A stretch of 39,791 nucleotides of DNA from a virus. Numbering within the stretch: the stretch's first letter is position 1; the number at the start of each line of letters is the position of its first letter. This document shows positions 14,408 through 17,958 of the stretch, piece by piece. The stretch covers positions 1 through 39,791 of IMG/VR virus record IMGVR_UViG_3300011116_000126. One strand, written 5' to 3'. The notes below the pieces were generated by a model, which saw nothing but the letters and a program-made list of their open reading frames with translations, was not told the DNA's origin and ran no database searches. Both the position numbers and the translations under genes were made by a program.

Positions 14408-14465
14408 TTTTTGTCCCTTATTTGTTTTGTTGATGAGGCTCATCAGTAGTGCCGTTTAGCACTAG

Positions 14466-14511
14466 ATAGCACTTACGGAATTAAAAAACTGCTGACTTCC
14501 GCAAGTGCTAT
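14466..14511. terminator. 15-bp hairpin between two early genes
   Basis: ATAGCACTTACGGAA (14466-14480) pairs with 14497-14511 with a single mismatch. On the minus strand the loop contains TTTTTT. It follows the 14518-14742 gene by six bases in the direction of transcription. The core GCACTTAC is shared with the hairpin at 15752, and GCACTTA with that at 12562. Confidence 0.6.
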
Positions 14512-14517
14512 TTCGCC

Positions 14518-15458: not shown

Positions 15459-15692
15459 TTACTTGCTTATTTCTTGTTGGAACTTTGACCATGTATCTTC
15501 CATGGTTTCTATCTCTTTATAGCCACACGCATCTTTAAATGTATTGCGATTGAAGCGTGGGTTGTCTGTTTCTAGTGCGCCGATAAAGCGCCAAGTTAAT
15601 GAGTCAGCAATTTGGTCACACTCTGTATTACTGCCTCTAATTGAACTAATTACCGCAGCAATTAATTCGTAGTCCTTTTTTGTCATTGCCAT
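15459..15692 (-). CDS. First gene of the leftward early block; conserved small phage protein
   Basis: This 77-residue protein starts with KKDYELIAAVISSI and later has NPRFNRNTFKDACGY, a pattern shared by many small phage proteins of unknown function. The leader is GAAAGGGACAAAAAATG. It is the first leftward gene after the large non-coding block, so it should be expressed immediately after infection. The likely role, by position only, is host takeover or regulation. Confidence 0.7.
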   Translation of the reverse strand: MAMTKKDYELIAAVISSIRGSNTECDQIADSLTWRFIGALETDNPRFNRNTFKDACGYKEIETMEDTWSKFQQEISK

Positions 15693-15751
15693 TTTTTGTC
15701 CCTTTCGGTTAATAGGCTTCCATCATCAGTAACCGTTGCCTAAGCGGTTAG

Positions 15752-15780
15752 ACGGCACTTACTTTTAGTGCAAGTGCCGT
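15752..15780. terminator. Hairpin at the left border of the non-coding block
   Basis: ACGGCACTT (15752-15760) pairs with 15772-15780. The stem extends by one further pair past a mismatch. A second small hairpin, AACCG/CGGTT, lies at 15731-15749. On the minus strand both are followed by ACTGATGA, which also follows the 14466 hairpin. It may end a leftward RNA made from the block, or bind a protein. Confidence 0.5.
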
Positions 15781-16177
15781 TTCGGAATATGTATGTCCCT
15801 AGTTATTTAGAATTTGCGTTATTGTGAAACGCTATCGGTGTGCCAAACCGACCTAAGAGGTAATTCTCCATGCCGACTTCCGCCTTATTTGGATTGCGCT
15901 GATTAGCAACTACTGTGGGTGCCTTTGTCTGTCACTTTCTAGGACTTACCCGTTGCGTGCGTTCCCTTATTTGCGTGTCATAACTCCGTGTAATGTTTTA
16001 TATCGGCTAATTGTGAACCTTGCCGAATACCGAAAACCTGCCTAAATTCTGTTAGCGTAATTAATAGCGACTAACGGATAATGCTGGCTATTTTCGGACT
16101 TGCACTTTGTTACTGGATACTCTGAACGGTGCAAAATAAATAACGAATTTGCCTACCGTTTATGCCTCCCATATGTC

Positions 16178-16261
16178 AATAGCAAAACTCAAACTCGCCA
16201 GAGCGGTGCGGTCCCTTGGGATTTAATGCCGATGCCTTCACCGAGTTTTTATTTTGCTATT
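16178..16261. other. Long-range hairpin in the non-coding hub
   Basis: AATAGCAAAA (16178-16187) pairs perfectly with 16252-16261. After a symmetric 3x3 internal loop, AAACTCG (16191-16197) pairs with 16242-16248. A further CGGTG/CACCG pairing (16204-16208 with 16239-16243) can stack inside with slight competition. The apical part contains TCCCTTGGGA. This is the strongest structural element of the block. Confidence 0.65.
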
Positions 16262-16342
16262 TAGTTGTCTAGGTTCGTGTGGGTAATTTACTTTTTCGTC
16301 CCTAAGTTGGGATAAATCCCTGCCGATTTCTCGGGTAAAGGT

Positions 16343-16370
16343 TTGACGAAATTTCTAAAACCACTATTTA
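16343..16370 (+). promoter_or_regulatory. Possible rightward promoter
   Basis: TTGACG (16343-16348) and TATTTA (16365-16370) are separated by 16 bases. A run of seven T follows. It would transcribe toward the rightward gene at 16611 with a leader of about 230 bases. The -10 match is moderate, so this is tentative. Confidence 0.3.
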
Positions 16371-16390
16371 ATTTTTTTACTACTAAGAGA

Positions 16391-16399
16391 AGTATATCA
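16391..16399 (-). promoter_or_regulatory. Possible leftward extended -10 promoter
   Basis: On the minus strand TGATATACT (16399-16391) matches an extended -10 element (TG-N-TATAAT). There is no clear -35. Transcription would start near 16384 and run left through the structured block into the early genes. Confidence 0.3.
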
Positions 16400-16598
16400 G
16401 ACCACGCCGAAGTGGGTTTTAAAGGGTCATTTAAACGCCGTAGAAGCCCAATAGGGACACGCAAATAATGAAGTGGTAGGTAGATACCAAATTGCTAGTG
16501 CTAATGGCTAATAGTCGGCATTTCCCTAATCCACGACACATTACAGGCGCAAATACCGTTACAACCTGCCTACTTGAACACTTATGCTAAGGCGTATC

Positions 16599-16604
16599 TA
16601 TACT
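16599..16604 (+). promoter_or_regulatory. Possible -10 element for a leaderless start at 16611
   Basis: TATACT is followed by six bases and then ATG 16611, so the A of the start codon would be +1. The gene has no usable ribosome site. TTGAAC at 16574-16579 is a weak -35 with 19-base spacing. Leaderless mRNAs are frequent in actinobacteria. Confidence 0.35.
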
Positions 16605-16610
16605 TGGGGT

Positions 16611-16841
16611 ATGGCTAATCCAACTAATAAATCCAACTACACGCATATTGAATTGCGTTGCGGTGGATTAATTGTGCAAATTGGGACAGAAACCGAATAC
16701 CCTGATTTAGTTGATGATTTAGCAAATAGAGCACTTACAGTTTATAAAGAAGCATTGGCGCACGCTAAAGAAAACGGTATTGATGTTAGCGATATGCGAT
16801 TAATTACCACCGATTATGGCGATGAAGAAGAAGATGATTAA
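16611..16841 (+). CDS. Small acidic rightward protein
   Basis: This is a 76-residue protein, with ATG 16611 preferred over 16584. It begins MANPTNKSNYTHIELRCGG, continues with a helix (LANRALTVYKEALAHAKENG) and ends in DYGDEEEDD. It is one of only two genes that point right. It is coupled by TAATG to the Cys-rich peptide downstream. Unknown function; it may be a regulator expressed from the control hub. Confidence 0.65.
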   Translation: MANPTNKSNYTHIELRCGGLIVQIGTETEYPDLVDDLANRALTVYKEALAHAKENGIDVSDMRLITTDYGDEEEDD

Positions 16842-16927
16842 TGTGCCTAAATTGTGGAAGTTGTAGTAAAGAACACGCACCCACAATTGATGATGCAGTT
16901 GATGCAGTATTAGATAGTCCGCTTTAA
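16841..16927 (+). CDS. 28-residue CxxCxxC peptide
   Basis: A frame from ATG 16841 to TAA 16927 begins MCLNCGSCSKEHAPTIDD and ends AVLDSPL. Very short proteins starting MCxNCG are common in actinobacteria and their phages, with unknown function. The start shares a base with the previous stop (TAATG). Its 3' end overlaps the oppositely directed metallophosphoesterase stop by four bases, so this is a convergent junction with no terminator between. Confidence 0.6.
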   Translation: MCLNCGSCSKEHAPTIDDAVDAVLDSPL

Positions 16928-17958
16928 TCCAACCAAATTTTATATTCTGCGGTTACTCTGCCTTTAATTGGGTCAATAAAATGCAAACGCTGGCTTGGTA
17001 TGGCGCTGGCAGCTAATAAATCTCGTGCATACCGATTATCGCTTTCCGTGCTACCTGTTTGGTAAATAGAACCCAATCCGTTTGCCATTGGCCAACAAGC
17101 ATGGGTGTGATAATGCCCTACATATACATCTCTAAATTCCCAAGGATATGCACCTGACCGCCAACGATTAGCGTGTTGAACAATGGCTGTCGGAGAAGCA
17201 AAGCCATTTCTACCAACTTCATCACCATGAATTAATAACGCACGGTAATTGCCTATTTCAACACGCTGGACATCTTCGGGACAATCTTGCCAAGTTAATC
17301 GTTTTTCATCTGATAATAACTGGCGTGCTAATTCGTAGCACATACGGTCAATATTATCGTTGCGTGGAACATCTGCTCTTTTATTACCAATTCTGCCGTG
17401 ATTGCCCCATTCTGCAACCACTAATACATTTTCATAAATAGCAAGTGCTTGCCTAATGGTATCTGTAATTAATCTAGATACTGTTACATATTGTTCAAAT
17501 AAAGTTGCATCTACTTCGTGCAGTTGTGCTGGGTAATTAAATAAACCTTCCACCATATCGCCACCAAATAAAACAACCACATCTTTAACTGGGTGGTCAG
17601 CACGCTGAATTTCTGTTATGCGTTGTGCTTTCTTAACAAATGAATTAACTCTTTCACGCATTATTTGCGAGTTATAAGAAGTTGTTTTTTTACTGCCTTG
17701 CCAATCTGTCATATGCCATAATGCAATCTCAGTAGATTTTTTACGCTTATCTATTAATGGTTGTTCTACTGGTTTAATTGCACCCATAGCAAGAGTGGCA
17801 TCTTTAGCGGCTTGAATAGTTGCTTCAACTAATTCTTGGGTTCTATTCTTTGCATCTTTTAATTGTTTTTGCGTTCTAATTAATGCTTTACGCAATTCAA
17901 CTACATCTGACGATGCTATTTCTTCTGGTAAATCTTCAAATGCCTCTTTTAAACTCAT
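16924..17958 (-). CDS. Metallophosphoesterase
   Basis: This 344-residue protein has a calcineurin-like metal site: Asp 85 (HMTDWQ), GGDMVEG (132-138), GNHGR (185-189), then LLIHGDEVG and GHYHTH. The first 70 residues are a helical coiled coil. This is a known phage family. It could act as a nuclease (Mre11/SbcD-like fold) or on nucleotides, and its substrate cannot be told. Its start overlaps the upstream gene by four bases (ATGA). Confidence 0.85.
   Translation of the reverse strand: MSLKEAFEDLPEEIASSDVVELRKALIRTQKQLKDAKNRTQELVEATIQAAKDATLAMGAIKPVEQPLIDKRKKSTEIALWHMTDWQGSKKTTSYNSQIMRERVNSFVKKAQRITEIQRADHPVKDVVVLFGGDMVEGLFNYPAQLHEVDATLFEQYVTVSRLITDTIRQALAIYENVLVVAEWGNHGRIGNKRADVPRNDNIDRMCYELARQLLSDEKRLTWQDCPEDVQRVEIGNYRALLIHGDEVGRNGFASPTAIVQHANRWRSGAYPWEFRDVYVGHYHTHACWPMANGLGSIYQTGSTESDNRYARDLLAASAIPSQRLHFIDPIKGRVTAEYKIWLD

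Follow-up and report, generated by a model that had tools for sequence, protein, structure and literature searches.

The gap at positions 15693-16610 of the viral record IMGVR_UViG_3300011116_000126, analysed here over its whole length of 39,791 nt (the window), is predicted from its sequence to encode a large structured non-coding RNA of about 0.8 kb, which would be transcribed from the minus strand. The 3' end of this RNA is a type II hammerhead ribozyme, a known class that is represented here by a variant with one inserted U, and cleavage at this site is predicted. We consider it probable that this is a ~0.8-kb minus-strand RNA whose 3' end would be made by the hammerhead and which, once released, would act independently, the latter by analogy with other phage RNAs. 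The argument is built on the conserved structure of the RNA body, the architecture of the ribozyme, their position and their co-occurrence in relatives.

Genomic context of the gap

The gap is real, flanked by the start codons of a minus-strand gene (ATG 15692) and a plus-strand gene (ATG 16611), and it is devoid of a conserved reading frame, as the original prediction held, with no ORF common to the homologous gaps of 20 relatives and two short TTG ORFs (54 and 58 aa) as the only ones in the window's own gap. Late genes (portal, tail, endolysin, exonuclease) are found on one side, and DUF932, RecT, and other recombination and replication genes on the other, the minus strand being the coding strand for nearly all genes of this phage. 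Upstream of the RNA lies the exonuclease (16924..17958, minus strand; phrog_284, E 1.8e-39), and downstream a 77-aa gene (15459..15692, minus strand) with a weak match to phrog_19432, to which phrog assigns no function; the start codon of the latter and the cleavage site predicted below are 58 nt apart. The gap is bounded by a divergent 76-aa gene (16611..16841, plus strand), with homologues in many, not all, family members. Its sigma70-like promoter (16575-16604, plus strand) has the -10 box just 5' of the ATG, so near to it that a leaderless transcript opposite the RNA is suggested. No tRNA was found in the whole window.

The host is likely a freshwater actinobacterium, since the minor-tail relatives among the annotated phages listed all come from actinobacterial hosts and the nearest exonuclease belongs to a lake Actinomycetia phage. 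By this protein, the closest isolate is Actinomycetia phage DSL-LC01 (47% identity), and a comparable gap is absent at its exonuclease locus.

Conserved structure of the RNA body

Folded as a single sequence, the gap is mildly below shuffled controls (z about -2.2 for either strand), and hairpins seen or counted in an isolated sequence would therefore be weak evidence. Relatives were gathered via the upstream exonuclease (16924-17958), which provided 80 viral loci, about 20 of them with DNA downstream of the exonuclease that can be aligned to the gap at roughly 71-90% identity (alignment A1). With the ribozyme left out, the consensus fold reached -135 compared to -47 +/- 8 for null alignments, i.e., z of -11 on the minus and -13 on the plus strand, values somewhat inflated because the nulls preserve the tree and the substitutions and not the order of columns. 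Covariation by itself cannot pick a strand, so the choice of the minus strand rests on the ribozyme.

The structured body is placed by alignments and covariation at 15751..16583 (minus strand), its 3' end being set by the predicted ribozyme cleavage and its start tentatively; a weak TANNNT at 16543-16538 would make the RNA begin near 16531. Across the family the RNA measures 0.65-0.8 kb. It contains a conserved six-helix core domain of 148 nt (15973..16120, minus strand), with 96.5% of cells paired and compensatory change in 20 of its 29 base pairs. A covariance model of this domain (R1) found five contigs outside its training set with E values of 1e-18 to 1e-21 and matched a distant group at 1e-5 to 1e-2, and it retrieved none of 100 other contigs gathered by a hammerhead pattern. 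A second conserved junction domain (15881..15975, minus strand) contains the helices CGC/GCG, GGA/TCC, and GCAAC/GTTGC, two of which are individually significant. The helices outside the ribozyme that reach significance on their own include 16026-22/16007-03, 15965-63/15893-91, 16097-92/16035-30, and 15832-29/15819-16. The long-range hairpin noticed in the original prediction (16178..16261, minus strand; 16261-16241 paired with 16199-16178) is also present, with compensatory changes in relatives (GCAAAA/UUUUGC, UCUAC/GUAGA, and AAGUAACAAAU/AUUUGAUACUU); it was verified separately, being missing from the whole-RNA alifold drawing, which is unreliable at misaligned hairpins. De novo all-pairs covariation gave a strong signal at the ribozyme stem only, and the body had to be examined by structure-guided tests. 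Overall, the proposal of a large structured phage RNA is borne out by the covariation and by the consensus fold relative to the nulls. Compared with Rfam at gathering and loose thresholds, the body matched no family, and no group I or II intron, tmRNA, or riboswitch was recognized.

A gap that is non-coding, rich in hairpins, and located between gene modules could also be a replication origin or another element acting at the DNA level, as had been suggested for this region. However, it carries a hammerhead core and covariation of the RNA type, it contains no DnaA-type box (TTWTNCACA), and the cumulative GC skew shows neither a turn nor an extreme there, so that the origin found no support and we regard a DNA-level element as highly improbable. 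The box search addressed DnaA-type sites, and initiator sites peculiar to phages may still exist there.

A type II hammerhead at the 3' end

The structured RNA of the original prediction stood, but the defining feature at its 3' end had been overlooked. This is hammerhead ribozyme 1 (15713..15787, minus strand), of type II, assigned by Rfam model RF02276 and covariation, with the layout UUCC-GAAA-C[stem III]-GUC^U-[stem I]-CUGAUGA-U-GGAA. It is composed of stem II (15787-15784/15721-15718), stem III (15779-15770/15762-15753), stem I (15750-15745/15735-15730), and a pseudoknot between loop I and the tail after stem II (15742-15738/15717-15713), all on the minus strand, the loop I-to-tail pseudoknot being a described feature of type II hammerheads (PMC3088659). 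Cleavage is predicted after GUC, between 15751 and 15750 (minus strand). Searched in a 111-base stretch, the site scored 35.4 bits with RF02276 (E 3.2e-6), slightly below the Rfam gathering cut-off of 37 bits, while homologous sites scored 38.4 bits (L057, above the cut-off) and 33.7 bits (L129). The whole-window Rfam scans did not report ribozyme 1, probably due to the inserted U after A9 and the long stem III. Our own covariance model R2, whose training set included the window sequence, gave it 93.3 bits.

The catalytic core (GAAA, the NUH cleavage site, and CUGANGA) is present in 21 of 21 distinct members, in which stems I and III are closed by loops, stem II is open, and 100% of the cells of stems I and III are paired. 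As many as 14 of the 17 pairs of these two stems have changes on both sides, and controls shifted by 1-3 columns were only 23-51% paired. Two members even show a coordinated C-G to U-A change adjoining the cleavage site, and the pseudoknot, compared by eye, appears as UAGGC/GCCUA in the window and as UUGGC/GCCAA or UGGA/UCCA in relatives. In the clade of the window, an additional U (15722) separates CUGAUGA from stem II. This U is absent in L121, L042, L057, L129, and others; located in the catalytic core, it may slow cleavage.

Loop III (CACUAAAAG) is nearly invariant though it lies outside the catalytic core, and its CUAAAAG is absent from all the other hammerhead-like cores (164) of the collected contigs. 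Some family members were collected with a pattern that contains this loop, yet it also occurs in those reached through the exonuclease or the upstream motif. We discarded a tentative pairing between loop III and UUUUAG near 16358, that segment being already in a predicted stem.

Distribution of the family

Homologues of the gap were found in about 40 IMG/VR contigs, in at least two gene contexts. Motif searches added the members L129, L276, L279, L281, and L284, with no exonuclease homologue in their available sequence; in L129 and L284 the RNA comes after tail-protein and putative lysis genes (lysis assigned by inspection). The contigs retrieved with a motif of the RNA body located ~100 nt upstream of ribozyme 1 all have the ribozyme at the end of the RNA, apart from a few chance matches, indicating that body and ribozyme form one unit. 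The gap had no blastn match among 50,697 annotated phage records, and one RNA-body motif had none in 84,980 prokaryote species genomes. A relative of the exonuclease occurred in a single genome contig (an Actinomycetota MAG), with neither R1 nor R2 matches nearby.

Some close relatives differ by swapped RNA segments (L016 vs. L015, and L022, L023, and L028 vs. L003; e.g., GGCGGAAGUCGGCAUGGAGAA vs. GUGAAGGACCCAAUGGUGAAC), a pattern that looks as if RNA modules recombine. In another contig (L014:3730-4780), an insertion of ~115 nt separates the conserved RNA domains.

Other hammerheads in this and other phages

A second hammerhead of type II form (ribozyme 2; 14437..14517, minus strand) was detected by pattern and by R2 (27.5 bits, E 3e-5), with an AUC cleavage site (predicted at about 14465/14464) and a long stem III. 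It begins 1 nt past the stop codon of an 82-aa gene and precedes a 170-aa gene. Thus, the window has two hammerheads on the same strand about 1.3 kb apart, and in relatives a second one is often found 1-2 kb downstream. Such tandem hammerheads might excise and circularize the intervening 1.3-kb RNA in the manner of retrozymes, the gap being merely a flank. The intervening segment, however, contains several protein genes that vary among relatives, and the conserved RNA structure sits upstream of it, inside the gap, which makes a circle of this kind very unlikely.

Type II hammerheads were also seen in many unrelated phage contigs (L163-L272), often 2-6 nt past a stop codon, with the following start codon 25-40 nt away (distances that depend on crude ORF calls), and some contigs have five to eight of them (L168, L236, L248, and L256). 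Judged by this placement, phage type II hammerheads look like systematic cutters of polycistronic transcripts. Since they also appear between ordinary genes of such phages, ribozyme 1 may have no specific tie to the RNA. The haloviruses HF1 and HF2 have a hammerhead 13 nt upstream of an early gene, with a transcript 5' end mapping near the cleavage site (PMC3088659).

Proposed role of the RNA

Upon transcription from the minus strand, ribozyme 1 would fold with its pseudoknot and cut after GUC. Upstream of the cut, this would yield the structured RNA, ending in a 2',3'-cyclic phosphate, and downstream of it the small-gene operon mRNA, which would start with a 5'-OH and carry a hairpin leader. 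With a structured RNA as the upstream product, the simplest reading is that the ribozyme fixes the 3' terminus of this RNA and releases the mRNA that follows. Cleavage in the cell would provide the ~0.8-kb RNA with a defined 3' end and separate it from the downstream early operon, and the released RNA may then function as an independent phage RNA, as proposed by analogy with GOLLD and ROOL.

The same arrangement can be read as a very large regulatory 5' leader, with the body sensing a ligand, a protein, or the host state and controlling cleavage and early genes. The body is always immediately upstream of the ribozyme, the ribozyme is only 58 nt ahead of a start codon, and the near-invariance of loop III, together with its absence from other cores, suggests a contact with the RNA body. 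Yet the downstream gene varies among relatives, a length of 0.65-0.8 kb far exceeds the usual size of a sensor, and a docking partner for loop III was not found. We see such a leader as a possible but unlikely explanation, and the same can be said of the natural allosteric ribozyme that the element would then represent.

Returning to the released RNA, a more speculative version, which we put forward as a doubtful idea, would make it, next to GOLLD and ROOL, the third family of ornate giant RNAs in phages, with a built-in hammerhead that produces the 3' end and a loop III that docks on the body, so that the cut occurs only once the large RNA has folded. If true, this docking would couple the folding of the large RNA to the release of the downstream mRNA.

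To our knowledge, few giant structured RNAs have been described in phages, and in no case has the function been settled. The family described here comes with an alignment that is ready to use and ~40 homologous contigs, and its predicted ribozyme-defined 3' end would leave a sharp molecular signature, a 2',3'-cyclic phosphate at 15751. With it, the question of what purpose bacteriophage hammerheads have can be asked of a concrete case.

Comparison with known systems

We found no description of a hammerhead-terminated giant phage RNA in the literature searched, the scope of which left out most subscription journals and makes the novelty provisional; within these bounds, the RNA appears to be a further, undescribed family of giant structured phage RNAs. 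The original prediction had named GOLLD and ROOL as candidates, on account of size, phage genome, and lake setting. The membership did not hold in Rfam model searches, which were negative in the region (E <= 10), in the whole window (E <= 1), and in five diverse members (E <= 0.5). Association with tRNA genes is frequent in GOLLD, not universal, and the window has none. Neither did the literature searched report a hammerhead end for GOLLD, and a divergent GOLLD or ROOL is an explanation to which we give almost no weight.

GOLLD members are often >800 nt and encoded by phages, and both GOLLD and ROOL form cages (PMC12286853). The released gap RNA might conceivably do likewise. The gap RNA resembles GOLLD in being about 0.8 kb, ornate, phage-encoded, and from lake environments, and differs from it in the lack of a covariance-model match and of a nearby tRNA, and in its predicted ribozyme-made 3' end. 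With ROOL (PMC12286853) it shares the condition of a large structured phage RNA without assigned function, whereas it has no match to the covariance model, no tRNA island, and another gene neighbourhood.

Ribozyme 1 has much in common with the RF02276 hammerheads (Perreault et al., 2011; PMC3088659), including an open stem II with closed stems I and III, the GAAA/NUH/CUGANGA core, the pseudoknot between loop I and the 3' tail, and the phage setting. It departs from them in the U inserted after A9 in the window clade, in a long stem III with the nearly invariant CACUAAAAG loop, and in being joined to a structured RNA of 0.65-0.8 kb.

In the VIPR systems, arrays of vrRNA, a phage guide RNA, are interspersed with hammerheads (preprint PMC13142463). 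Compared on RNA features alone, both are non-coding phage RNAs with hammerhead cutting (predicted in our case), whereas the gap RNA is a single folded molecule and not an array, with no run of three or more GGY/NN tandem repeats in the gap. The VIPR arrays are the nearest analogue of a hammerhead-cut phage RNA that we have found.
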